In this document: piece by piece, positions 21,892 through 44,726 of the stretch
How the letters are laid out: every line of letters starts with the position of its first letter
Position numbering within the stretch: the first letter of the stretch is position 1
Origin: Candidatus Nitrotoga sp. LAW
Lineage (GTDB): Bacteria; Pseudomonadota; Gammaproteobacteria; Burkholderiales; Gallionellaceae
Assembly: GCA_003402315.1 (NCBI GenBank)
Contig: QFXI01000011.1
Coordinates: 1 to 44,726 of the forward strand
Reading direction: 5' to 3'
Length of the DNA stretch: 44,726 nucleotides
Translations under genes and position numbers: made by a program
The notes under the pieces: generated by a model
Told to the model about the DNA's origin: nothing
Seen by the model: only the letters and a program-made list of their open reading frames with translations
Database searches by the model: none

Positions 21892-22209
21892 TGATGTTTC
21901 CTCCAGTTAAGTTATAGAAAATATCATTGCTGATTAACACACATCGAAGCCTGTATTACTTTAAACTTCAGACAGTGCCTTCTTTTTGAGTATATTATGA
22001 AAAAATATGGTGGGCAAATAAATATCTGACGAGTAAGCTTAGACTGTGGTAGCGCAGCAAGCCGCAATTTAAGCCGTTTCTTGGTCAAGCCCGGCGGAGT
22101 TGTGAACTTTAACATGGAACTACTTTAGTACTGTAGTTCGTCAATCAGAAGTGTCCTTATTCAAGGTGGCACGAGCGTGGGTGCTTAGCCAACCAAGCCT
22201 TGGATCTTT
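21892..22209. other. Intergenic, no recognised gene
   Basis: About 320 bases between the ClpA-N gene and an integrase tail. A 63-codon minus-strand frame at 21924-22115 has no ribosome site or domain. The ClpA-N promoter should lie here but I cannot point to a clear one. The right part is presumably debris of the vanished element that left the integrase tail. Confidence 0.4.
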
Positions 22210-22431
22210 GAGTGCTTGCGGCATACCTGGGCAAGCTGGCTTGTAATGGCTGGAACGCCATTATCTGTTCTGCAAACGCTTGGTGGGTGGAAGTCACTTG
22301 ATATGGTGCAGCGTTACGCTCACCTTGCACCGGATTTTATCGCCAGTTACACAGAAAACTCTGCAAGAGGCGGAGCACAATTAGAGGTACACAAAAACGA
22401 TATTGCTTTGAGGCTTGTTGCAAGTGCTTGA
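22210..22431 (+). pseudogene. Tyrosine recombinase C-terminal fragment
   Basis: Only the last third of a phage/ICE-type integrase remains. [20 protein letters not shown] carries the catalytic Arg and downstream helix, [16 protein letters not shown] holds the second His/Trp position and the nucleophile Tyr. Homology begins abruptly at the RHTW box; upstream sequence does not encode the rest. It stops 5 bases before the 3' end of tRNA-His, exactly where an integrase gene sits in a tRNA-integrated element. I found no matching tRNA-His repeat elsewhere in the window. Confidence 0.85.
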
Positions 22432-22436
22432 ATATT

Positions 22437-22513
22437 TGGGGTGACTGATGGGGCTCGAACCCACGACAACCGGAATCACAATCCGGGGCTCTACCAACTG
22501 AGCTACAGCCACC
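22437..22513 (-). tRNA. hisT: tRNA-His (anticodon GTG)
   Basis: This is a 77-nt minus-strand tRNA with the extra 5' G (G-1) facing discriminator C73, a bacterial tRNA-His hallmark. The acceptor is GTGGCTG paired with CAGTCAC with one G-U pair, the anticodon loop holds TTGTGAT, and CCA is encoded. It is the last tRNA of a His-Arg-Pro cluster and its 3' end adjoins an integrase tail. Confidence 0.95.
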
Positions 22514-22542
22514 ACTGGGTAAAACTCGACAAAATATGTCTG

Positions 22543-22619
22543 TGGCGTGCCCGACAGGAATCGAACCTGTAACCCCCAGCTTAGAAGGCTGGTGCTCTAT
22601 CCGGTTGAGCTACGGGCAC
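22543..22619 (-). tRNA. tRNA-Arg (anticodon TCT)
   Basis: This is a 77-nt minus-strand tRNA with acceptor GTGCCCG/CGGGCAC, anticodon loop CTTCTAA (TCT, reads AGA/AGG), T loop GGTTCGATT and an encoded CCA. It is the middle gene of the His-Arg-Pro cluster. Confidence 0.95.
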
Positions 22620-22660
22620 AATTTCCTGCAAGTCATTTGACTCTGTACTACTAAGATATA

Positions 22661-22737
22661 TGGTCGGGGTGGAGAGATTCGAACTCCCGACATCCTGCTC
22701 CCAAAGCAGGCGCGCTACCAGGCTACGCTACACCCCG
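22661..22737 (-). tRNA. proM: tRNA-Pro (anticodon TGG)
   Basis: This is a 77-nt minus-strand tRNA with acceptor CGGGGTG/CACCCCG, anticodon loop TTTGGGA (TGG), T loop AGTTCGAAT and an encoded CCA. It is the first gene transcribed in the cluster. It lies downstream of pgsA on the same strand. Confidence 0.95.
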
Positions 22738-34070: not shown

Positions 34071-34163
34071 GGAGAGATGGCCGAGTGGTCGAAGGTACTC
34101 CCCTGCTAAGGGAGCGTAGGGTTTATAGCCTTACCGAGGGTTCGAATCCCTCTCTCTCCGCCA
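34071..34163 (+). tRNA. serV: tRNA-Ser (anticodon GCT)
   Basis: This is a 93-nt class II tRNA with acceptor GGAGAGA/TCTCTCC, anticodon loop CTGCTAA (GCT, reads AGC/AGU), a long variable arm around 34118-34136, T loop GGTTCGAAT and an encoded CCA. It lies 25 nt before tRNA-Arg, probably in one transcript. Confidence 0.95.
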
Positions 34164-34188: not shown

Positions 34189-34265
34189 GCGCCCGTAGCT
34201 CAGATGGATAGAGTACTTGGCTACGAACCAAGGGGTCGGGCGTTCGAATCGCTCCGGGCGCACCA
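34189..34265 (+). tRNA. argV: tRNA-Arg (anticodon ACG), integration target
   Basis: This is a 77-nt tRNA with acceptor GCGCCCG/CGGGCGC, anticodon loop CTACGAA (ACG, A34 to inosine, reads CGN) and an encoded CCA. Its 3' part from the anticodon on is repeated at 39064-39110 and partly at 43973-43996, so it is the attachment site of at least two integrated elements. The gene itself is intact because the elements bring an identical 3' end. Confidence 0.95.
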
Positions 34266-34267
34266 GT
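34221..34267 (+). repeat. Attachment-site repeat, copy 1 (inside tRNA-Arg)
   Basis: This is the 47-bp segment from the tRNA anticodon (CTACGAACC) to two bases past CCA (CACCAGT). Copy 2 at 39064-39110 differs by one base (C to G in GGGGTCGGG). Copy 3 shares the last 20 bases and four more downstream (AAAT). Together they define attL, a middle junction and attR of stacked elements. Confidence 0.9.
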
Positions 34268-34272
34268 AAATC

Positions 34273-34310
34273 AATGGGTTAGGTCAGAAATGATCTAACC
34301 CATTATCTTT
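34273..34310 (+). terminator. Intrinsic terminator of tRNA-Arg (copy 1)
   Basis: A 14-bp stem (34273-34286 with 34291-34304, one G-T pair) and a GAAA loop is followed by ATCTTTT. On the other strand the stop codon of the integrase remnant lies inside this hairpin, which indicates the terminator came in with the element. Confidence 0.85.
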
Positions 34311-34935
34311 TGGATGGGGACTTTTTGGGGACTTTCATTCCCAAGCTGTTCCCGCCGAATCATTGCGAGGCTACGATTGATCCGACTGCCTTCATTTGTG
34401 ATGCGGTTTAATGCCGCCAATAGCTCATCAATCTGTACTACCGAGTAATGAGCCGTCATACCTTGTCGGGTATGCCACAAAATGTCAGCAATCGTCTCTT
34501 CCCGTGCGCCAGCCTCTCGCAATCGCATTCCAACCGTATGGCGCAAATCGTGAATATGCAGGTCAGGAATCCCTGCAAGCTTCCGCACTCGTTGCCATGA
34601 ATTGTTGTTCATGGTCTCAATTCGATGCCCTTGGTAGGGAAACACGTACTCGGCATGTTTTCCGCGCTGTGCTTCGATGATACTTTGAGCCACCGTATTG
34701 CAGACCAGAACGCGACCCCGCTTCCGTCCCTTGACGTTTTCCCTTGGAATATCAAACACTAATACGCCAAGTTCAGGAATAGAAATTTCCCATTCCCACT
34801 TCAGACCACACACCACAGACCACACACCACCCCATCCCGTGCGCCCGTATTCAAATCGAACAAGACCATCGTTGAAAGATGATCCGGCAGTAACGGCAAG
34901 ATGCACCGTTGTTCTGCCCAAGTGATGGGACGCGG
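34295..34935 (-). pseudogene. Tyrosine integrase, truncated and frameshifted
   Basis: Read right to left, the catalytic domain starts at REPRPITWAEQRCIL, continues LLPDHLSTMVLFDLNTGARDGVVCGL and would join KWEWEISIPELGVLVFD, then HDLRHTVGMRLREAG with the catalytic His/Arg pair and HYS with the nucleophile Tyr. A 14-bp tandem duplication (34803-34830) breaks the frame exactly between GL and KW; removing one copy restores it. The N-terminal DNA-binding part is missing because the sequence switches near 34930 to another gene remnant. It lies next to the tRNA-Arg 3' end and was probably the integrase of the proximal element. Confidence 0.88.
34803..34830. repeat. 14-bp perfect tandem duplication inside the integrase
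   Basis: AGACCACACACCAC occurs twice in direct succession (34803-34816 and 34817-34830). Because 14 is not a multiple of three it shifts the reading frame. One copy gives an uninterrupted, family-like integrase sequence, so the duplication is the disabling mutation or a reversible switch. Confidence 0.9.
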
Positions 34936-35654
34936 TTCACGCTGGTGGCGCTTGTCTATAAGTTTGTGGACACCGAAGGCGAACCACTTCCGGAAGATGT
35001 TGCTTCCTTTTTTGCCAAGGGTGCTATCGACGATGGGCAACTTAATGCCTTCGCAAAGTTGATTGGCAAGAAGGGTATCGAGTGGTATTGGATCGATGCG
35101 GGTGACCAGAAGGCTGGCTCAATCTGCGTGATTAAGCGGGCAACCAAGGATAAGGAAGCTACGCAATATCGTATGCACATGAACAAAAACCATATATCAG
35201 CTGTGCAGTTCGCCACTCTTGCGCATGAATTGGGGCACCTGTTTCTAGGGCATCTAGGCACAGGGCGCTCAATGTTCCGCATCGGCCTTCCATGAACCAT
35301 GCGCAGCGCGAAATTGAAGCTGAGTCGGTGTCCTATTTGGTGTGCGCCCGTAATGGCATCACATCAAAATCAGAAACCTATCTTGCGAATTACGTCGAGA
35401 AGAATACCACCGTTGAACACCTTGATCTTTACCAAGTGATGCGGGCATCCGGGCAAGTGGAAGCCCTGCTTGGCCTTACAGCGCACACAAAATATGACAA
35501 GCCACCAGCCTTAAAGCCGGCATCTAAAAAATCTCGCGTTGAACCCATTCCGGATTTATTCTCAAGTGCGCCAGCCTCCATGCCAGCAGAAAACAAGGCA
35601 GCCGATACTCAATTCGCCAACAACACGAATCCATCAAGCCGCTTTGGTTTTTAG
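34918..35654 (+). pseudogene. IrrE/ImmA-like zinc metalloprotein, 5'-truncated and frameshifted
   Basis: The first frame runs to 35295 and carries the zinc-binding motif HELGHLFLGHLG near residue 104. The second frame (35292 on) continues the same family with MNHAQREIEAESVSYLV, where a third metal ligand (Glu) and the following helix are expected. A single-base shift near 35265-35275 separates them: in the second frame the sequence before its ATG also reads as protein (RALNVPHRPSMNHAQ). The start is lost where the integrase remnant is joined. Homologous domains occur in ArdC-like anti-restriction and phage-repressor-cleaving proteins of mobile elements. Confidence 0.75.
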
Positions 35655-35966
35655 CGGGATAATCGTTGATCCGCGCTGGGCAGCGGCAAGCTGTTTTCCC
35701 CACCAGTCAAGCAGCTTGACCCGCCCATTTTTTCGACTTCACCAATCAAGGCCAGTCAACATGACCTTGGGCGTGTTTCAAGATAATATTTTAGCCTCGA
35801 CGCGATAATATGCTGATTTTATTGTTTTGATACTGATCAATTAGAGATACCCAAGCACCGTCACTATAGATAAATATCACGATACCTGGATTCGGCCGTC
35901 ATTTAAGCACTTTTCAAACTGATTACATTGGATTGGCAAAGGTTGACCACCAGCGGCACATTTGCG
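35655..35966. other. Intergenic, no recognised gene
   Basis: About 310 bases between the metalloprotein remnant and the antitoxin gene. No ORF with a ribosome site, no tRNA and no strong hairpin is seen. The antitoxin gene ends at its right edge. Confidence 0.45.
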
Positions 35967-36302
35967 CTAAATCACAATCGCTTCCAACCCCTTTTTTTCA
36001 ATGAGCTGTAAAAGCTTCGCTACTGCACCACTGGGGTGTTTACCAGAATTAGGCGACTCCCATTTTTGGACGGCAGAAACACTGACATTCAAGATTGAAG
36101 CAAACACCGATTGACTAACCTTGGCTTTTTCCACGCGGATGGCAGTCACTTTTTCGGGCGTGTACTCAGGCGCTTTCTGGCACAGCAGGTTCATCTTGGT
36201 CATGTCTTGTTTGGTGATCAAGGCATGGCCTTGAAGGGCTTTCGCCATCTCCAGCATTTCGCTAAGAATGCGGTTTTCTTCAAGTGATTTTTTATTTGTC
36301 AT
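35967..36302 (-). CDS. HTH antitoxin of a HigBA/RelE-type module
   Basis: This 111-residue DNA-binding protein has a C-terminal Cro/C1-type helix-turn-helix (SQSVFASILNVSVSAVQKWE, about 70-89). The N-terminal half (MTNKKSLEENRILSEMLEMA) is probably the toxin-contacting arm. The gene overlaps the toxin gene by 11 bases and follows it, the toxin-first order of higBA-like modules. It should neutralise the toxin and repress the shared promoter. The family assignment is good; the exact toxin class is less certain. Confidence 0.85.
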   Translation of the reverse strand: MTNKKSLEENRILSEMLEMAKALQGHALITKQDMTKMNLLCQKAPEYTPEKVTAIRVEKAKVSQSVFASILNVSVSAVQKWESPNSGKHPSGAVAKLLQLIEKKGLEAIVI

Positions 36303-36669
36303 GACAAATCTCCTTTAGGATTTTGGATGTAAGCAGCTCGTCGAGTTTATTGCGGTTCACGTTTTCAAGCGCATGGGCAATGATTTTTGCGGCTTCAACT
36401 TCTTTGTCTGAAAAGTCTGTTCCGGGGGCATTTTTCTCACGTCCCGCTAAAAAGAAGATGGCATCTTGATGCTTTTTAGCGACCAGTGTACGGGTTGACC
36501 CACTTTTGCCTTGGCCGGGTATCGGTATGCGCTTTTTGCACACGCCGCCACCCAAGTCGGCTTCAAACAATCCTTGCTCAATCTGGTGTGCGGCCTCACA
36601 CAGCAGAGCATCACTCACCACTTTGCGCGCCCAGCGATCAAAGGTTTTGGTTTTGAACACTCTTTTCAT
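36292..36669 (-). CDS. RelE/HigB-type toxin
   Basis: This is a 125-residue predicted mRNA interferase that would act at the ribosome. The start MKRVFKTKTFDRWARK and the core GGGVCKKRIPIPGQGKSG-TRTLVAKK followed by IFFLAGREKNA are typical of the RelE/HigB-like toxins found on mobile elements. The frame is intact while the neighbouring integrases are broken, as expected for an addiction module that kills cells that lose it. Upstream, 36670-36700 contains GCACCATGTGC, a possible operator half-site pair. Confidence 0.83.
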   Translation of the reverse strand: MKRVFKTKTFDRWARKVVSDALLCEAAHQIEQGLFEADLGGGVCKKRIPIPGQGKSGSTRTLVAKKHQDAIFFLAGREKNAPGTDFSDKEVEAAKIIAHALENVNRNKLDELLTSKILKEICHDK

Positions 36670-36776
36670 ATTCGAATTCTAGTTTGTTATAGCACCATGT
36701 GCAATAGCTGTTCAGCAAGGAGGCATGATGTTTCGATACGCAGGGTTGTGAGTTGCTGAGTTCCTTGCTTGTTAGT

Positions 36777-37990
36777 TCATGCACTTTTCAAACTAATTAC
36801 ATTGGATGCGCTGAGAATCGCTTCCAGCCTATCGCCCAATTTGTTCCAAGCCTCGCGCTTTTCGTCAGCATAGTCATCGAGCAAATATACCCGGTCAATT
36901 TTGCTGCCGATCACATGGTTCTGGCATAGGTTGATCACATCCCGGCTGACTTTTAATTTCTGCATTAGTGTTGCCCCTGTTCTGCGCAAATCGCGCGGCG
37001 TCCACTCCTCATCACCCACCACCAGATTGTTATTTTCAACTCTGTTTTTCAGTTTGCGGGTTCTGCTCTTGAATTTCACCTGTCGGTCGCCCACCAGCTT
37101 ACTGACAGTCTTTTCGCATACGTGCCCCACTTTGTAGCGCGCCGGGAAAGCCCATTCGCTATCATTCGTCAGGGTGTGCAGCTGCTTGAACTGATCCAGC
37201 GTGAAATCGGAGAGATAAACGAGTTGGTCGTGTTTTCTGCCGCGCTCGCCTTTGGTGTTGGCTGCCGGAATAAACCACGTCCGCTGCTCAAAGTTGACAT
37301 GCTTCCATTCAGTCATCAGCAATTCACCAATGCGGCAAATCGTCCCCAGACACAACCACAAGGCGATCTGCGCTTCTTTTTTTAGGGGACGTTCCGTGCC
37401 ATATTTTTGAGACGCGTCCGCGTAATCTTGCGCCGTGGTCTCGAAAATCGTTTGCAGCTTGTTGATTTCCTCAATGCTCAGTTGCCGCTTGCGCTCTTTG
37501 GTGTAATCGTTCGGGACGATTTGTTTGATGTCCACCAACTCGGCGGGATTGCCGTCGATCAGCAAGGCGCGCCAAGGCTTGCGCTTTTCCGCCCAGCGCA
37601 ACATCTGCCCGATGTCCTTGGATAGCTCGACCGCCGTGGCTGTCTTGCCTGCTGCGATGATTGCCCGATACACATCCCGCAGATGATTCTCGGATAAATG
37701 CCGTACCTCGATATTGCCCAGCACTGGAATGGCGTGCCTCCCCATGGACTGGGTAATGTATTTGTTGCCGTCGCTGCGGTTCACCCCATCCTTAATCCAT
37801 ACCTTGTAGAGATCATTGAAGGTGAGGGCTTCAGTGCGCTTTTGTTCGTCGGCACGGAGATTGCGTCAACATCGGCCTGCGCTTCAATTCTGGTCGCGAC
37901 CTTGTTGGCGCGTGGATCAATGCCAGCCTTAACCAAGTCACGTGCTTTATCACGCTCCTCGCGAATTGCCGCCATATCCCTGGTCGGGTA
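36777..37990 (-). pseudogene. P4-type tyrosine integrase, frameshifted and 5'-truncated
   Basis: The long frame (37784 down to 36777) contains the core-binding domain, the catalytic boxes CRIGELLMTEWKHV (Arg), TPRDLRRTGATLM (Arg) and a C-terminal HVIGSKIDRVYLLDDY with the nucleophile Tyr. Upstream, the frame IREERDKARDLVKAGIDPRA belongs to the same protein but is out of register. Restoring one missing C near 37858 yields AISRADEQKRTEALTFNDLY, which bridges the two. Homology fades by about 37990, so the N-terminal DUF4102 arm is also lost. This is a second inactive integrase within the proximal element. Confidence 0.85.
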
Positions 37991-38206
37991 ACTATTCCTG
38001 TTTGCTAATGATTAACAAGTATAGTTTGAATAATGCACATAAAAACCGTTGTTATCCTCAGTATGGCACGGTGAATATGCTAATAGATAATTTTGGGTTA
38101 AAAATAAAGATTTTGCTTATTGTTATTCTTAGTCGGTCTTTTATTATCTGTTCTCAAGTTGGCTGATATTTCCGTTTAATAACTATTAATTCTAAAGTGA
38201 GACAAA

Positions 38207-38401
38207 ATGTTGCTACCACGTCAAGCTAAAATATCAGTTGCCGCGCTTCTAGTATGCATCGCTCCAGCTTATGGAGGATGGGGCTTAAACGACGTCGTAA
38301 ACGCAGTCACAAATGCTCCCGCGGCCGCTACTATTCACCGGGATCTTGACTGCTTGCGCGCAGAAGTCGATTTCGAGAGAAGTATTGCCACAAAGATGTG
38401 A
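38207..38401 (+). CDS. Small predicted secreted protein, unknown
   Basis: This 64-codon frame has a plausible signal peptide (KISVAALLVCIAPAYG) and a short mature part with one Cys (DCLRAEVDFE). GTGAG precedes the ATG. No family recognised. It may be the beginning of a longer gene interrupted after ATKM, or a genuine small protein. It lies in the decayed proximal element. Confidence 0.4.
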   Translation: MLLPRQAKISVAALLVCIAPAYGGWGLNDVVNAVTNAPAAATIHRDLDCLRAEVDFERSIATKM

Positions 38402-38473
38402 GTGAAATTTCACGAGACAGAGTTCTTGTGATCGGTATTGACATAAAAAATTACATTGGGAATGGTGGAAACG

Positions 38474-38866
38474 ATGACTACATTTTTCGGAATAGGTGAA
38501 CATAATTCGGAAAAATTTATCGAGCATGGAGTGGTGTGCATAGATAACTCGGTAGAAAAAGAAGCCGTTGTATTTAAAACATTCCAGAGTATCAGGACTG
38601 AGGATATAATTTTTATTAAAAACTATACTCAAGCTGGACTGAAAGTGAAAGCTGTTGGAATTGTTTTGTCCAGCTTACCTACCGAAAATGAGCTGGGAGT
38701 TTGCATTCCGGTTGAATGGGTATGGAAAGGTGAGAAGTTTATGGAGCAATTTGGCGAAGAATTGGCACACTGTAGCGATGCACTTTATGAAGAATATAAT
38801 ATTTTGGTACAAAGAGAAATAATAGATTTATTGCCCAGCAGATTCCAGTTAACTGAAGAGTGGTAA
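38474..38866 (+). CDS. Hypothetical protein of the proximal element
   Basis: This 130-residue soluble protein starts MTTFFGIGEHNSEKFIEHG. I prefer the ATG at 38474 (GGTGG upstream) over 38456 or 38462, which are also in frame. The composition is acidic, with one hydrophobic strand pair (LKVKAVGIVLSSLP) and ends LLPSRFQLTEEW. No known domain is visible. A 12-bp hairpin follows the stop by 9 bases, supporting a real transcript. It could be element cargo. Confidence 0.6.
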   Translation: MTTFFGIGEHNSEKFIEHGVVCIDNSVEKEAVVFKTFQSIRTEDIIFIKNYTQAGLKVKAVGIVLSSLPTENELGVCIPVEWVWKGEKFMEQFGEELAHCSDALYEEYNILVQREIIDLLPSRFQLTEEW

Positions 38867-38874
38867 AATTTTAA

Positions 38875-38907
38875 TGACAGCTCAGCCTGCCTCATGCTGA
38901 GCTGTCA
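38875..38907 (+). terminator. 12-bp hairpin after the hypothetical gene
   Basis: TGACAGCTCAGC (38875-38886) pairs perfectly with GCTGAGCTGTCA (38896-38907), with a 9-base loop. No T-run follows, so it is either a weak terminator or a protein-binding palindrome. Confidence 0.6.
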
Positions 38908-39063
38908 CCTTAGTAAAGGGTCATCCGTAGCGAGAAACAGCGTAGCCAGATCGTAACTTGATGGCGATGCTTGCCAGCTGCTTGAGGCTTTGTGTAGCTG
39001 GAAATTGAATTGGCGAGTGTTACAGGTAACTGATAATTAAAAATTAATTTCAATCTGCGGCTT

Positions 39064-39110
39064 CTACGAACCAAGGGGTGGGGCGTTCGAATCGCTCCGG
39101 GCGCACCAGT
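39064..39110 (+). repeat. Attachment-site repeat, copy 2 (junction of stacked elements)
   Basis: This copy of the tRNA-Arg 3' half, anticodon to CCA plus AGT, differs from copy 1 by one base. It lies at the end of the serine recombinase gene: in antisense the repeat encodes the last residues (CARSDSNAPPLGS) and the stop TAG falls on the tRNA anticodon-loop bases CTA. It separates the decayed proximal element from the intact distal one. Confidence 0.9.
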
Positions 39111-40695
39111 CAGGTATAAAACTGGGCACTTGTTTCAAGTTGCCCATTTTTATTTGTTGCATCGTTTCAGCAAGGGCGGCATAGCTGCCTTTGACTGTAG
39201 CGTTTCTGTCTTCCACCACGATTTCGTCCACTAGAATATTTAAATAACTTTTTGCCAGCGGTGAATTTTTGGCAAGCAGTTTTTCACGCAGCACCTTGCC
39301 TAATACATCCACCTGACTTGCCTTGATATGCTCAACCGCTGGCAGGGTGTGATCGCGACGAACACCAGCCAGTTCAATGAATAGCGCCTCCCGTGCTGCC
39401 TTGTGTTGTTGAGCGCGGCGCTGAGTTGTGTCATCCAGTTCAATCGCGCCCATTTCAATAGCATTTAACAAATTGTGTTGTTTCTTTTCGACCAGTTTTA
39501 TCTGGCGATTAATTTCATTGATGCGCTCCTGCTGGCCATCCTTGGAAGATTTGATGCGCTTTCGCAGTTCCGCCACCATCATTTGCAGACGTTCCGGTGC
39601 AAAGATTTTATCGGCCATGCTATGCAGCACTAAATCGTCCAGATGCTCCATAGGTAGATTTTTACTAATGCAAGCGTGATTGCCTTGGCTTTGGCGGCTT
39701 GTGCATTTGTAATACTTGTAACGGCCTCCCTTGCCCGTGACTAAGGTCATAGCGTGTCCGCATATTCCGCACTTGAGCAAACCCGTCAGTAATGTCGGGC
39801 ATGAAACCAAACGCGGCGCTCTTCTCGAAGGTGCGCGGGATTCACGTTTTGCCCTGACGCGCTCGAAGGTGGCAGCATCGACGATGGCAGGGATAGTGGC
39901 TTTTATCCATTCCTCTGGCGGTCTATTGGTGTTGGTCTTGGAGTCGCGGATATTGGTGAAATATTCGCCCATGTAGAGCGTATCCGATAGCAAGGTGTGC
40001 GACTTATGAATATTCCAAGGCTTACCACGCATAAGCAGCCCCTTTTCGGTGAAATGCTTGGCGATTTCTTTGCCGCCCATCTCTCGGCCTTGATAACCGT
40101 TCAGATAGAGATCGTAAGCCATGCGCACAATGCCAGCCTCAGATTCATTGATAACAAGTTTCTTTTTGTGGCGGCCTCGACTGCCTGCTATATCCGTGAC
40201 TATTGCCTGATAGCCAAAGGGCGGTGATGAACCATTGAAGAAGCCTTGCCGTGCGTTCTCCTTCATGCAGCGGGAAACGTGTTTGCTTATCTCTTTGGAT
40301 TGATGCTCGTCAAACATCGTAATAATTCGGCGCATCATTTCGCCCGCCGAATCGTCGCTGGTTTGCTGGGTAATGGATATGACCTTAACCCCAGCCTTGC
40401 CCAGCTTGCGCTCATATACGCCGAACTCAATGCCATCGCGAAAGAAGCGCGAGAGGCTATGAATGATGATGGCTTCGAATGCGGGTGGTTTCACCATGGC
40501 ATCGTTAATCATTCGCTGAAATACAGGCCGCTTGTCATCCGTGGCGGATGCACCTGGCTCGATGTATTCCTGCACTACCAAGTGGCCGTTAGCCTTTGCC
40601 CACTCGTGCAATTGGCGAAGTTGGTCAGGAATAGACAGGTCATTTTCTGCCTGCCGCGAGGTGGAAACCCTTACGTATAGCGCCACGTGCATCAT
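39064..40695 (-). CDS. Large serine recombinase (integrase of the distal element)
   Basis: This 543-residue site-specific recombinase has an N-terminal resolvase domain with catalytic Ser11 (YVRVSTSRQ) and the conserved Arg text SLSRFFRDGIEF. A recombinase domain follows (GFFNGSSPPFGYQ, about 150-260). Then come a zinc ribbon (CGICGHAM with the second pair CTSRQSQGNHAC) and a long coiled coil (about 385-450). GGAG precedes the ATG pair. The last 13 residues are encoded by the tRNA-Arg repeat read backwards. The frame is intact, so the element may be mobile. Confidence 0.92.
   Translation of the reverse strand: MMHVALYVRVSTSRQAENDLSIPDQLRQLHEWAKANGHLVVQEYIEPGASATDDKRPVFQRMINDAMVKPPAFEAIIIHSLSRFFRDGIEFGVYERKLGKAGVKVISITQQTSDDSAGEMMRRIITMFDEHQSKEISKHVSRCMKENARQGFFNGSSPPFGYQAIVTDIAGSRGRHKKKLVINESEAGIVRMAYDLYLNGYQGREMGGKEIAKHFTEKGLLMRGKPWNIHKSHTLLSDTLYMGEYFTNIRDSKTNTNRPPEEWIKATIPAIVDAATFERVRAKRESRAPSRRAPRLVSCPTLLTGLLKCGICGHAMTLVTGKGGRYKYYKCTSRQSQGNHACISKNLPMEHLDDLVLHSMADKIFAPERLQMMVAELRKRIKSSKDGQQERINEINRQIKLVEKKQHNLLNAIEMGAIELDDTTQRRAQQHKAAREALFIELAGVRRDHTLPAVEHIKASQVDVLGKVLREKLLAKNSPLAKSYLNILVDEIVVEDRNATVKGSYAALAETMQQIKMGNLKQVPSFIPDWCARSDSNAPPLGS
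39123..39152 (+). terminator. Intrinsic terminator after att copy 2
   Basis: TGGGCACTTG, loop TTT, CAAGTTGCCCA (one bulged T) and a run CATTTTTATTTG form a good plus-strand terminator 12 bases after copy 2. It lies wholly inside the antisense serine recombinase reading frame. It differs in sequence from the terminators after copies 1 and 3. Confidence 0.75.
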
Positions 40696-40901
40696 CGTTC
40701 TCCATAGTCAGCAACCCCAAAATCTTAAAACCTGTTTAGCAGGAAAAGGGAGTGTCTCTAAACACGAGCAGCGGCGGGGGCTGACCCCGAACGATTCCCG
40801 CTTTGAACACGCCGCCCTCCGGGCAATTCAACGATGGCATACTGTAGAGCACCGCAGCTGGCCGTCATTTAGAAGGTAGAACACGGCCAGCGTGGTGCAC
40901 G

Positions 40902-41045
40902 TTACTCGTCGTCTTTCAGCGCTTCGATTTGCATCATCGCATGAATTAAATCGGGCAAAATGGATTCAAGGAACGCTAGTTCGTCGGTTGATATGACCGC
41001 CGCTTGAGGCTTGAACTGAATCTTGATATTTATGGATTCGTTCAC
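40902..41045 (-). CDS. Small protein (47 aa) of the distal element
   Basis: This is a short minus-strand frame with GTG start at 41045, reading MNESINIKIQFKPQAAV and ending MMQIEALKDDE. AGGAGGTG lies 11 bases upstream. An ATG four bases earlier (41049) opens a different frame of only 27 codons. The longer frame has protein-like composition (amphipathic helix and acidic end). It lies between the 74-residue gene and the recombinase gene on the same strand, so it may belong to one operon. No family known. Confidence 0.55.
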   Translation of the reverse strand: MNESINIKIQFKPQAAVISTDELAFLESILPDLIHAMMQIEALKDDE

Positions 41046-41072
41046 TCATTATGGCACCTCCTTTCCTGCAAT

Positions 41073-41297
41073 TTATTTCTGCCCATCCCATTCCGCTGGT
41101 GCTGCCCCGCTCCTTACCTTGCCGCTCTTCGTTAATTCGCGCTCCATATCACGCACAAATTCGGAGTTTCCGAATTCACGAAGAAATTCTTTTTTGAATA
41201 ACAAAAACTTTTCTTTTTCCATGTTCATTTCAGCGAGTGCCAACACACGCCGCTTGCGCGGGTTTATTAACCGAATGATTAACTCGAAGATCATCAT
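41073..41297 (-). CDS. Small charged protein (74 aa) coupled to the Rep-like gene
   Basis: I start it at 41297, where ATG overlaps the upstream stop (ATGA); the frame continues further up but only antisense into the Rep-like gene. The product begins MMIFELIIRLINPRKRRVLAL, a short hydrophobic stretch followed by a basic patch, then a Lys/Glu-rich helix (MNMEKEKFLLFKKEFLREFG). It might be membrane-associated or DNA-binding. No family is recognised. Translational coupling to the Rep-like gene suggests a job in replication or transfer of the element. Confidence 0.6.
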   Translation of the reverse strand: MMIFELIIRLINPRKRRVLALAEMNMEKEKFLLFKKEFLREFGNSEFVRDMERELTKSGKVRSGAAPAEWDGQK

Positions 41298-42364
41298 TCG
41301 CCCATCCTCATTTCTGTCATGCGCCGCTCGACATCGGTTTGCCATGTAAGCGGGTCGTGGATGTGTTCCAATTGGATGGCTAAATGCGCACGTGCTTGCT
41401 TGAGCGATATGGCAGGGGTTTTGCCTTGCAGGCTGTAAATGGCGGCGATGCGCTTCATGTAGCCATACAGGCTGATGGTAATACGCATCATGCGTTGATC
41501 CAGCAGGGCTGGCATGTCCAGTTCACGCACTACGCCCAAGCCTTCCATTTGTGCAACACGCTGTTGCAGGTCTTGCCACAAGGGATGCAACGGCCAGCGC
41601 GAACGGTTGCTGTCATTCGTTTTGATGCGCAACGTTGTGTGGTCGTTGACCAACACGCGGAGCAAATCGCCCTGACGTTTTTTTAAATCCTCGAAGGTTC
41701 TGATGCCGACCAGCCGCAGCCATTGCTTGCGGGCCTGCCATTCAATACGCCAGACATTTTGCTCCATGCCCCACAGTTCATAGAACCAAGTTTTCTGACT
41801 GCTTTCTTGTATTTCGTCGCACTTATTATAGAGGCGCAGTCGGAGGTCAGTTTGACCGAGGCGGAAAGTTTGCTTCTTGCGGTGTTTGCGGTGTTGATTA
41901 TCCTTGGCGAAGCTGGAAACAAAATTGTCTTCGTCGAAATCAATGATGGGCAAGTGATAGTCGAAGGTGAAATCCACTCTTGAAAGTTTTTCAGGCTGAT
42001 ATGCGTGCAGTCCGACAGAGTGCGCCCATGCCAGAAAGCGGTCATGCAATCCCTGTGCGCTGGAATGCCACAATGCAATGCTGCGGAAGGTGACGAAGAA
42101 GGATGGGACATTGAATTCGCCAAACTGGATGCTGAATGCCTCATTTTCGATCAGGAACGGATACCCGCTACCTGTGCCGTGTCCGGCCAGCATGAATTCT
42201 TCAGTGCCGAGCTTGATGAGCGTGGGTTTGCGCGACTTGGATAGGCGCATGATTTCTTTCTCTACAGCCAGCCGTTCATAGTCAAATTTACACCCCTCAG
42301 AAGGCGCGAGGTAATAGGCACACTCGATGGTGTCATGGCCGGATAGGAGAAGATGGAAATTCAT
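41294..42364 (-). CDS. Rep_trans-like replication/mobilisation initiator
   Basis: This 356-residue protein resembles replication initiation factors of the Rep_trans superfamily (as in RCR plasmids and MobT-type relaxases). The core strand SRVDFTFDYH (128-137), the text RLRLYNKCDEI (174-184) and VWRIEWQARKQWLRL (204-218) are the family signatures. Such proteins nick one strand through a tyrosine; I cannot tell which Tyr is catalytic (Tyr179 is one candidate). The start overlaps the upstream ribbon-helix-helix gene (ATGA) and the end overlaps the next small gene. It would let the element replicate by rolling circle or be mobilised in trans. Confidence 0.75.
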   Translation of the reverse strand: MNFHLLLSGHDTIECAYYLAPSEGCKFDYERLAVEKEIMRLSKSRKPTLIKLGTEEFMLAGHGTGSGYPFLIENEAFSIQFGEFNVPSFFVTFRSIALWHSSAQGLHDRFLAWAHSVGLHAYQPEKLSRVDFTFDYHLPIIDFDEDNFVSSFAKDNQHRKHRKKQTFRLGQTDLRLRLYNKCDEIQESSQKTWFYELWGMEQNVWRIEWQARKQWLRLVGIRTFEDLKKRQGDLLRVLVNDHTTLRIKTNDSNRSRWPLHPLWQDLQQRVAQMEGLGVVRELDMPALLDQRMMRITISLYGYMKRIAAIYSLQGKTPAISLKQARAHLAIQLEHIHDPLTWQTDVERRMTEMRMGE

Positions 42365-42786
42365 TTGCTGGAAGTTTTAAATTGATCTTTGGTGCCAACA
42401 AAGTTGCCATATAAGGCCTCAGGATGTTCATTCCCTAACTCTTTTTCAAGTAAACAATAATGGCTATCCGCCGAACGCTGGAATCTGCCGCGAATTCCGC
42501 CCATGTAGTAAAGCTGCCCCTTCTCGCCTATTTGGTGCGCAATGTAATCGTTATCACGATCATCAACGGGTTCACCCGGACATTCTGGGAGCCGCTTTTC
42601 TAACTCATCAATCGCAGTGGTCAGCAAGTCGGCCACAATTTGTGTGCGGTTTTTTTGTGGGTAGACTTCACAAAGCGCGGCAATCTTGGCAGCAATGTGA
42701 ACAGGTAGGCGGAACGAAAATTGCTTAGTTGTAAGCCGTGAGTTGTCAGGGCTTGTCCATAGGTCGTGAAGCTGATCTGATTTCAT
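42361..42786 (-). CDS. Ribbon-helix-helix (CopG-like) protein
   Basis: This 141-residue protein starts at 42786, where GGAG precedes MKSDQLHDLW; a longer frame from 42828 is less likely. Residues about 21-65 (KQFSFRLPVHIAAKIAALCE then NRTQIVADLLTTAIDELE) fit a ribbon-helix-helix fold. The remainder (GEKGQLYYMGGIRGRFQRSAD) is unassigned. It is the first gene of the coupled operon and probably autoregulates it or serves as an accessory DNA-binding factor for the Rep-like protein. Confidence 0.7.
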   Translation of the reverse strand: MKSDQLHDLWTSPDNSRLTTKQFSFRLPVHIAAKIAALCEVYPQKNRTQIVADLLTTAIDELEKRLPECPGEPVDDRDNDYIAHQIGEKGQLYYMGGIRGRFQRSADSHYCLLEKELGNEHPEALYGNFVGTKDQFKTSSK

Positions 42787-43076
42787 GTATATCTCCAGTA
42801 AGTCAAATGACTTGCTAGAAATATACAAGCATTACAATCGAATGTCAAACAAATTACACCAAGTAATAAATTAAGCCGCTGCGCAGCCCGTGCGCGCGCT
42901 GCGCGTCGCTCCCAGGCTGCCCATCGGCTTATATTTTTCCGTGTTAGAGATTAGTTAAACTGTGTTAGATTGGGTTAATGTATTTATAGCCCCCCGTGTT
43001 ACTTGAACGGGCTAAGAGCGAGACTTTTAATATTTTTTTGGATTTCCTTATCTATTCTCTATAAGAAAGAGTCACA

Positions 43077-43931
43077 ATGACATCAGAAAAACACAAAAAG
43101 AACATTGAGAATGATAGTGATAAAACTCTAACATGCGGCTTAATAATGCCAATATCATCCATCGATAATTGCTCATCTGATCATTGGATTGAAGTAAAGA
43201 GCATTATTATGGAAGCTGTGGACTCTATAACTAACCTACGCTTTTCCATTAAACTTGTAAGCGATGCTGATGACGTGGGTGTAATTCAGAAGCGAATTGT
43301 TCAGAATATATACAGCTCAGACATAGTTATTTGCGATGTCAGCTGTAAAAATCCAAATGTCATGTTTGAACTCGGAATGCGCTTGGCATTTGACAAGCCA
43401 ACAGTAATCATAAAAGATGATAAAACAGACTATGCTTTTGATACAGGAATTATTGAGCACGTTCCCTATCCTCGCGACTTACGTTTTTCGAGAATCGTTA
43501 CATTTAAAACAGCACTTGCAGAAAAGGTTGTTGCTACTCATCGAGCTGCAATGACCGACCCAAATCATTCAACATTCCTCAAAAACTTTGGCAAGTTTCA
43601 GGTGGCAAATTTAGAAGAATCTCTAATTCCAGCAGATAAGTTAGTTATTGAAATGCTCTCTGATCTCCAAACAGAGGTTGCGCGACTTAGACGATTTTCT
43701 CCCCGCGATGATATTCGCCGGAATAAGAATAACGAGGCGGAAAGTATATTGAAAATTACTCATGCGATAGATTCATATCGTCATGACAACAAAGGGATTG
43801 ATACAATAGAACTTCTTGGAAAAGACGATTTCTACAAATATGTAGAAGATCGTATAGATGCTCATCGGCATTTTGATAGTCCCAGTGATTTTCGAAAGGC
43901 AGTGGATCGAGAACTTATAAATCGTTGCTAA
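43077..43931 (+). CDS. Nucleoside deoxyribosyltransferase-like protein, candidate defence cargo
   Basis: This 284-residue soluble protein has residues about 18-125 that resemble the NDT/TIR-like Rossmannoid fold. The diagnostic text is SSDIVICDVSC then NPNVMFELGMRLAF (93-106), where Asn94 and Glu98 occupy the positions used for catalysis in NDT-type enzymes. Relatives I recall act on nucleotides or NAD and occur in anti-phage operons. A charged central linker (RRFSPRDDIRRNKNNEAES) leads to a helical C-terminal domain. AAAGAG precedes the ATG. The gene is more A/T-rich than its neighbours and lies alone at the far end of the element, next to att copy 3. The defence role is inference. Confidence 0.65.
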   Translation: MTSEKHKKNIENDSDKTLTCGLIMPISSIDNCSSDHWIEVKSIIMEAVDSITNLRFSIKLVSDADDVGVIQKRIVQNIYSSDIVICDVSCKNPNVMFELGMRLAFDKPTVIIKDDKTDYAFDTGIIEHVPYPRDLRFSRIVTFKTALAEKVVATHRAAMTDPNHSTFLKNFGKFQVANLEESLIPADKLVIEMLSDLQTEVARLRRFSPRDDIRRNKNNEAESILKITHAIDSYRHDNKGIDTIELLGKDDFYKYVEDRIDAHRHFDSPSDFRKAVDRELINRC

Positions 43932-43972
43932 TTTTAGAGTAAGGAAATAGCCACCTCCCAGTGCCCAGATTT

Positions 43973-43996
43973 ATCGCTCCGGGCGCACCAGTAAAT
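43973..43996 (+). repeat. Attachment-site repeat, copy 3 (right end of the island)
   Basis: These 24 bases, ATCGCTCCGGGCGCACCAG then TAAAT, match the last part of tRNA-Arg copy 1 and its immediate downstream bases, including AAAT which copy 2 lacks. It marks the distal boundary of the stacked elements. It is shorter than the 47-bp copies, as expected for an attR that no longer needs to encode the tRNA. Confidence 0.85.
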
Positions 43997-44029
43997 AAAG
44001 GGGTTAGGCATAAAAGCTTAACTCCTTTT
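43997..44029 (+). terminator. Intrinsic terminator after att copy 3
   Basis: AAAGGGGTTAGGC (43997-44009) pairs with GCTTAACTCCTTT (44016-44028; two G-T pairs) around an ATAAAA loop. It resembles the tRNA terminator after copy 1 in layout (GGGGTTAGG vs TGGGTTAGG) but differs in sequence. It may be the original tRNA-Arg terminator before any insertion. Confidence 0.75.
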
Positions 44030-44598
44030 CCATTCTTGCGTTGCCTCTACGCTATCGAAAGAATCAATCTGGAAATAATCCGGGTGCAATTGGTGGGACG
44101 GCAACCTCAATTCCACCACGTCAAATCAACCCTCTCTAATTCATAATAGCTGCTGCGGACTGGTGCGGAAAGCATCCGTATTACCAGCCAGTTCATCAGT
44201 GTCGGACTGCCGGATACATCGAAAATGCAGACATTGGTTCGATCTGCCCTTCGCAATCGAATTGCGTGATATATCAGAAGCAACATGCTAGTGGCAGTCT
44301 TCGCCCCCAGCGCATGTACACCGATGCAGACGGGCCTGGGAATGCTTGCGCTACCAGGCATGGGGGAAACTTTAACAATTTCGATTTGACGAAGGGATTA
44401 CAGGCAATATGCCAGCCTTCAGCTTGAGAGGCGCACGACAAATAATGCAACCATTAATATTAATGTAAAAAGTGCTGTGGTTGCCACTGCAATTGGTGTT
44501 ACAGCAGGTGCGCTGTTAGGCGGGCGCATATGCTAGGTTTAGCTGTACTAGCTCAGACCTGATCTGACAGTTACCGAATTTTTCGGGTGTCTGTCAGA
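44030..44598. other. Region with unrecognised remnants
   Basis: About 570 bases. An 84-codon minus-strand frame (44107-44361) and a 61-codon plus-strand frame have no ribosome site or known domain. A plus-strand frame without a start ends at about 44535 in VKSAVVATAIGVTAGALLGG, a glycine-zipper-like tail that could be the end of a broken membrane or colicin-like gene. At 44569-44597 CTGACAG and CTGTCAG flank a partly palindromic stretch that probably forms the terminal repeat of the IS element listed next. Confidence 0.4.
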
Positions 44599-44726
44599 TT
44601 AAATTTGGTTTAGATTTTTTCCACTCCAAACCTGTTTCCCACTGAGTAACGTTTCCAACGGCGTTCTGCCATTACAAACCTTGCCCTGATGAGTTCTTTC
44701 ATTATTGTAATAATTGAGCCATTCGT
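44599..44726 (-). CDS. IS481-family transposase, C-terminal end (partial)
   Basis: The minus frame entering from the right window edge reads EWLNYYNNERTHQGK then RTPLETLLSGKQVW and stops with TAA at 44599. This is the typical end of an IS481/IS3-group integrase-core transposase. The rest is outside the window. The inverted-repeat-like sequence CTGTCAG...CTGACAG just beyond the stop fits the end of the element. Confidence 0.85.
   Translation of the reverse strand, partial: EWLNYYNNERTHQGKVCNGRTPLETLLSGKQVWSGKNLNQI

Follow-up and report, generated by a model that had tools for sequence, protein, structure and literature searches.

tRNA genes are classic landing sites of mobile elements, and the locus described here raises the question of what becomes of the transcription stop behind such a gene once an element has landed. 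The locus lies in a 44,726-nucleotide (nt) stretch of Candidatus Nitrotoga sp. LAW (contig QFXI01000011.1), called the window below, in which the gene for tRNA-Arg(ACG) (34189..34265, + strand; ARAGORN, Rfam RF00005) is followed by what appear to be two integrative elements, one behind the other. We propose, with a probability of roughly 0.7, that two elements with convergent recombinase genes have accreted in this tRNA gene and that the attachment site (attP) of each comprises the 3' end of the tRNA and, behind it, a terminator. With an attP of this kind and a crossover within the tRNA end, the tRNA side would keep a complete tRNA together with the element's terminator, and integration would push the native terminator to the far end.

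Two stacked elements and three terminators

The target gene, apparently regenerated by element 1, stands just behind tRNA-Ser(GCT) (34071-34163; ARAGORN), and its 3' end recurs twice downstream. Repeat copy 1 (34221..34267, +) runs from the anticodon loop to the 3' end of tRNA-Arg plus GT, copy 2 (39064..39110, +) is at once the right end of element 1 and the left end of element 2, and copy 3 (43973..43990, +), the final 18 nt of the tRNA, is the right end of element 2. Copies 1 and 2 are 98% identical over 47 nt. At the far end, 43973-44008 matches 34248-34283 with 94% identity over 36 nt, of which 18 nt (43973-43990) are tRNA sequence. By these repeats, element 1 would span 34266 to about 39108 and carries tyrosine integrases, and element 2 would span 39109-43990 and carries a large serine recombinase. 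Three marks of tRNA-targeting integrative elements are present: the tRNA 3' end as a direct repeat at both ends of each element, an integrase gene adjoining an end, and a differently occupied site in a relative (genome G005). No truly empty tRNA-Arg site in a close relative was identified among the compared loci.

Each tRNA end is followed by a hairpin. T1 (34273..34304, +), attributed to element 1, overlaps the 3' end of intA (34295..34921, -; PF00589, E 4e-12). This gene, in convergent orientation to the tRNA, is the 3' part of one for a tyrosine integrase. The T2 hairpin (39123..39146, +), with a U-rich tail at 39147-39155, lies within the open reading frame (ORF) of the serine recombinase. 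T3 (43997..44028, +), recognised by its fold and shared with the right flank of G005, is read as the displaced native chromosomal terminator. When 51-nt pieces were folded as RNA in the tRNA direction, the energies were -20.7 kcal/mol for T1 (z-score -4.4), -15.9 kcal/mol for T2 (z -2.8) and -17.0 kcal/mol for T3 (z -3.3). The stems begin 6 to 14 nt past the CCA, and each is a GC-containing hairpin with a U-rich tail, so that fold and context together indicate intrinsic terminators. A simple pattern scan detected T1 alone of the three and returned 12 terminator-like sites against 12.9 expected in shuffles; such generic scanning is therefore insufficient as proof.

A sequence-only reading of this DNA had described three tRNA-Arg(ACG) 3'-end copies, each followed by an intrinsic terminator, and the repeats, folds and spacing confirm this. 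Its picture of two stacked elements, each beginning on the left with a tRNA end and a terminator, is likewise upheld by the repeats and by the G005 comparison. It had called the three terminators different, which is right for T2 alone, the only one of another kind; T1 and T3 are homologous, with 26 of 35 aligned positions identical.

Terminators behind tRNA ends across the family

A search of genome contigs with the tRNA end returned at least 119 stretches, which were pooled with the loci of the genus. Among the matches listed there are 147 nonredundant tRNA-end copies, 101 full tRNAs and 46 partial ones, on which our main counts of partial, full and integrase-adjacent copies rest; six full copies with <50 nt downstream were omitted, leaving 95 to be scored. 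Because a ViennaRNA hairpin score by itself let through too many random pieces (91 of 600 at <= -8 kcal/mol), a combined strict criterion was used instead. By this criterion, a strong terminator follows 39 of the 46 partial and 84 of the 95 full copies, compared with 63 of 1500 72-mers drawn at random from these loci and one of 43 stretches upstream of partial copies. In a smaller count with a laxer score, 24 of 25 partial copies scored positive, compared with 445 of 3200 random pieces. Terminators after attachment repeats are accordingly well above chance, the outcome on which the sequence-only reading had staked its claim. Since most full copies that adjoin none of the three integrase families introduced next are followed by a terminator too, the informative cases are those in which an element starts directly behind the tRNA end.

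A convergent integrase lies behind the tRNA end in 16 copies for one tyrosine family (TyrA), in seven for a serine family (SER) and in three for another tyrosine family. After L179_6954 and L191_4431 were dropped, both having an intervening copy before the same integrase, 15, six and three copies remained, that is, 24 distinct cases. Read in the tRNA direction, a strong terminator is present in each of the 24. Ten other convergent ORFs were scanned with Pfam, and these ten included no phage integrase and no resolvase.

A hairpin between two convergent genes might simply be the integrase gene's own terminator, acting in both directions, with no tRNA unit involved, and 13 of the 24 cases do score in the integrase direction too. 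We consider this improbable. Scoring in the tRNA direction is the feature common to all 24, and in seven of the eight serine-type left ends read (L179 was unmatched by the motif used) the recombinase frame passes through the hairpin and stops 45 nt inside the tRNA end. In nine of the 15 TyrA loci, the stop codon falls 6-30 nt past the CCA, within or ahead of the hairpin. Further, the 84 full tRNA copies with a terminator mostly adjoin no such integrase. We infer instead that the terminator would halt transcription of the tRNA before it runs antisense into the recombinase gene, a form of transcriptional protection by the element.

At four other loci (L146, L155, L173 and L211), two near-complete tRNA-Arg(ACG) copies stand approximately 140 nt apart, with a strong terminator after the second only.

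Origin of the terminators

Comparison of related strains, the check that the sequence-only reading had proposed, was informative in G005. Relative to the window genome (G000), its left flank is identical at 220 of 226 positions (97%) and its right flank, including T3, at 98 of 107, and between these same flanks it has a different element and a different terminator directly behind the tRNA. A local alignment of that terminator with T1 extends over just 24 positions, 21 of them identical. Because the flanks are kept and the post-tRNA terminator differs, T3 appears to be native and the terminator behind the tRNA to have been brought by the element. In genome G004, an integrase 96% identical to intA is paired with a terminator that is also 96% identical. 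Delivery of the terminator by the element is supported by strain comparison for T1 and by the family association for T2.

A crossover downstream of the terminator would reverse these roles, making T1 the native terminator and T3 the element's copy. The homology of T1 and T3 would fit, as would the T1-like terminators behind full tRNAs in L201 and L164, where none of the three integrase families adjoins, and the host-like terminator in L114 and L124. However, T3 and the flank beyond it are common to G000 and G005, the post-tRNA terminators differ and the left flanks are 97% identical, which contradicts this alternative for G000; overall we regard it as very unlikely. With a crossover inside the tRNA end, the homology of T1 to native T3 and its likeness to the terminators of L201 and L164 (sites that are possibly occupied) make T1 look like a captured host terminator and not an independent one. 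The claim that integration restores both the tRNA and its stop needs qualifying: the G005 comparison indicates that the terminator came with the element, whereas its sequence seems to go back to the host.

The tyrosine-type terminator, host-related and probably captured from a host, is kept foldable by compensatory changes, as ten sequences show. Across ten TyrA terminators, 99.2% of cells are paired and 14 cells are changed on both sides, and the covariation score is 0.363 against 0.197 in shuffles (reached in 0 of 500). Four pairs carry changes on both sides against 2.8 expected, which is not unusual (57 of 500 shuffles). Terminator identity tracks integrase identity in TyrA (r=0.38, p=0.004, n=15) and in SER (r=0.68, p=0.014, n=6).

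Several observations weigh against our model. Among the 12 full TyrA loci, terminator identity also tracks the host flank (r=0.44, p=0.04; integrase r=0.33, p=0.05), which makes it too simple to treat TyrA terminators as a property of the element alone; that view was rejected. As the terminator of L114 and L124 is host-like, capture or homogenisation there is indistinguishable from a crossover downstream of the terminator. The upstream part of intA continues in another frame (34801-35040), and the 96%-identical relative in G004 is a single 375-aa frame; the window gene thus looks broken, and element 1 is probably not mobile by itself. Others concern element 2 and its relatives and are taken up with them below.

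The recombinase of element 2 and its attachment site

The large serine recombinase of element 2 (39064..40695, -; 543 aa) has the Resolvase, Recombinase and zinc-ribbon domains of its class (PF00239, PF07508 and PF13408) and matches the PHROG 95 integrase (E 2e-99). Its ORF runs through T2, and its TAG stop is the complement of CTA in the tRNA anticodon loop. The attP sites of large serine recombinases are palindromic and about 50 bp long. When the two ends of element 2 are joined, AGTGCCCAGATTTATC, the tRNA end and GTCAGGTATAAAACTGGGCACT form a palindrome, as expected of such a site; its centre is the C of GGGCG-C-ACCA and its arms match at 16 of 22 positions (0 of 1000 shuffles); the corresponding palindrome of L184 matches at 15 of 22 (2 of 1000 shuffles). 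The predicted left half-site is AGTGCCCAGATTTATC (43960..43975, +), from the palindrome test. The predicted right half-site, TATAAAACTGGGCACT (39115..39130, +), supported by conservation as well, comprises the spacer plus the 5' arm of T2. By this test, the 5' arm of a hairpin within the recombinase ORF is also the right half of a palindromic attP, where the recombinase would bind, a role that goes beyond the sequence-only reading.

In ten aligned T2 relatives, TGGGCACTT is invariant (10/10), the 3' arm is variable yet still pairs, and the U-tract is always kept. The eight that were checked for it (all but L177 and L182) adjoin either a member of the recombinase family or the reading frame of its C-terminus. 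At serine-type right ends with the left half-site, a strong hairpin plus tail follows in eight of ten; one of these eight, L068, is an inverted remnant and no real terminator case, which counts against us.

Integration also appears to change the recombinase itself. The integrated protein of the window ends in ...DWCARSDSNAPPLGS and the form read across the excised junction would end in ...DWCARSDKSGHWEVAISLL; the tails for L184 are ...NARPLGS (integrated) and ...DKSGHWETVISLP (excised junction). As read from the sequence of both loci, integration alters an element-encoded C-terminus, one mark of a switch-type system, and would swap the tail for one read from the tRNA antisense strand. In seven of 12 right-end matches, the frame of the excised form stops exactly seven codons past the Trp of Gly-His-Trp (GHW), with differing sequences. 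Of the remaining five, the frame of L068 ends at the Trp codon and that of L090 continues further, and L316 and the loose matches L122 (second place) and L182 have no such frame. This pattern suggests, without proving it, that the recombinase gene contains attP and that selection acts on the tail of the excised form.

A fuller scheme can be imagined, in which the serine element packs four functions into approximately 60 bp (tRNA 3' end, attP palindrome, tRNA terminator and recombinase C-terminal codons). Integration would then be a switch that protects the recombinase gene against antisense transcription from the tRNA and exchanges the conserved tail (DKSGHW plus seven residues) for a tRNA-antisense tail, altering the activity or stability of the enzyme while it is integrated; convergent elements would more widely supply a terminator, and co-directional ones would discard it and use the tRNA promoter. 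We find this scheme as a whole rather doubtful.

Distant relatives were found outside the clade. On Sinorhizobium meliloti pSymB, a 36%-identical recombinase (L482:5968-7655) ends inside tRNA-Arg(CCG) with a 30-base overlap; AAAACTGGGCACT, the same half-site motif as in element 2, is present there, as is a hairpin behind the recombinase and tRNA. On a 4.3-kb faecal phage scaffold, another 36%-identical relative ends inside tRNA-Asn, with a hairpin that lacks a U-tract. Viral contigs yielded two distant recombinase relatives only (24% identity). An old origin is probable for the overlap between recombinase gene and tRNA, and the use of a T2-type hairpin as a terminator may be particular to the clade studied.

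These relatives add to the points against our model, because the hairpins behind the tRNA in pSymB and MT839362 have no U-tract and so are not canonical terminators; the hairpin may be primarily a recombinase site. On that account, the element 2 hairpin would serve recombinase binding first, with termination an incidental by-product of a U-rich stretch. The invariant 5' arm, part of the attP palindrome, speaks for this, as does the half-site with a hairpin but no U-tract in the alphaproteobacterial relative (S. meliloti). Set against it are the U-tract in all ten aligned T2 relatives and the 3' arm, which has no need to bind recombinase and varies yet keeps its pairing. We take this account as a serious contender, though we would not quite put it at even odds.

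Generality beyond tRNA-Arg(ACG)

Integrases at other tRNAs were surveyed in 19 Nitrotoga genomes from the PF00589 matches listed. The XerC/XerD-like top matches, those of the window itself and the second piece of any split gene were excluded, and the nearest tRNA end within 400 nt was sought around 107 of the integrases listed. Among these matches, a strong terminator follows nine of 15 convergent and three of 15 co-directional tRNAs (p 0.060), or seven of 12 and three of 15 when redundancy is removed (p 0.057), over a background of 36 in 800. The tendency of convergent integrases in Nitrotoga to go with a terminator more often is suggestive and not significant.

The sequence-only reading had pointed to tRNA end plus terminator as a modular attachment unit, and its generality fails outside the clade. 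Of 36 integrases listed from other Gammaproteobacteria, none of three convergent loci and not the one co-directional locus has, by the same cut-off, a strong terminator close to its tRNA; one convergent hairpin reached -10.8 kcal/mol and one co-directional hairpin lay farther off. In E. coli K-12, the convergent argU-intD has no strong terminator and the co-directional argW-intS has no terminator, whereas the co-directional leuX-intB has one with a 7-bp stem. An orientation rule of general validity is not upheld, given argU-intD, the three convergent loci without a strong terminator and leuX-intB with one. That convergent elements supply the terminator and co-directional ones do not remains a hypothesis.

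At three co-directional Nitrotoga loci (L280, L279 and L278), a hairpin with a U-rich tail, one below the strict cut-off, stands behind the tRNA, and all three share a motif like GGGCACTGGCG downstream; these integrases may be a group of their own.

Other genes of the elements and neighbouring features

The right half of element 1 holds a second tyrosine integrase gene, intB (36777..37784, -; PF00589, E 3e-11), copies of which, 86% and 93% identical, adjoin tRNA-end copies in L077 and L073, respectively. Between intA and intB are a RelE-like toxin gene (36292-36669, -; PF06296, E 3e-42) and a helix-turn-helix (HTH) antitoxin-like gene (35967-36302, -), whose HTH_3 match is below its cut-off. 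The 3' end of intB is duplicated 874 bp apart (35902-35954 and 36776-36828, 75% over 53 nt) and brackets this pair, as if the RelE and HTH genes had been inserted along with a duplicate of the intB end.

Element 2 includes a gene whose product might be a rolling-circle replication initiator (41294..42364, -), a guess from a weak PDB match to GST REP (E 0.16); its product has no Pfam, PHROG or NCBIfam match. The next gene, which overlaps it (42361..42828, -), encodes a protein with no Pfam, PHROG or NCBIfam match either. A cargo gene at 43077..43931 (+) resembles TIR and nucleoside deoxyribosyltransferase proteins (PADLOC TIR effector, E 1e-6; PHROG 3634, E 5e-16; PF05014 below cut-off) and is perhaps anti-phage.

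Elsewhere in the window, a tyrosine integrase fragment with a TAG (22186-22329) stands beside a tRNA-His/Arg/Pro cluster (22437-22737) and is probably a remnant of a further tRNA-targeted element. About 183 bp at the right edge of the window (44544-44726) have five other copies in the genome at 98-100% identity, several of them at contig ends, and are probably an insertion sequence.

Relation to known systems

As far as the passages available from each source go, the locus combines features known separately. The tRNA islands of Islander and TIGER (PMC4383910, PMC10111431) share the split target, the gene regenerated from attP, the displaced far-end fragment and the tandem elements; there, only the identity block of fis is described as reaching into the terminator of that gene (PMC10111431), whereas here attP carries a terminator. 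In ICEKp1 and other co-directional integrative and conjugative elements (ICEs) at tRNA-Asn (PMC13023037), the native tRNA terminator is likewise displaced to the far end, but there the integrase gene points the same way as the tRNA, whose promoter drives it after that displacement; here the integrase is convergent and a terminator is supplied. Convergent tRNA and integrase genes also characterise the OC-shape integrases such as that of KplE1, which made up 438 of 1273 tRNA-adjacent integrases in one survey (PMC2951348); the passages on them make no mention of an attP-borne terminator.

For element 2, the rumA serine-integrase ICEs of Streptococcus (PMC4701971) are alike in having the recombination site within the integrase gene, whose C-terminal end is changed by integration; their target is a protein gene, whereas here the target is the antisense strand of a tRNA and a hairpin or terminator lies within an attP half-site. 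Mycobacteriophage BPs, in its integration-dependent immunity (PMC9262239), also relies on an attP inside an element gene, an attB at tRNA-Arg and a changed C-terminus, but the gene is a repressor, the enzyme is a tyrosine integrase and the passages describe no terminator. In the literature searched (titles, abstract starts and passages, with partial coverage), no description of a terminator as part of a tRNA attP was found, which is weak evidence of novelty.

The fate of the tRNA stop after landing was recently shown for co-directional elements, as passages on ICEKp1 relate (PMC13023037). The present locus would be the matching case for convergent elements within a single bacterial clade, and it holds a compact serine-recombinase module whose attachment site overlaps both a terminator and the end of the protein. 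The locus raises a testable question, namely whether the orientation of the integrase decides if an element supplies or discards the terminator of its tRNA.

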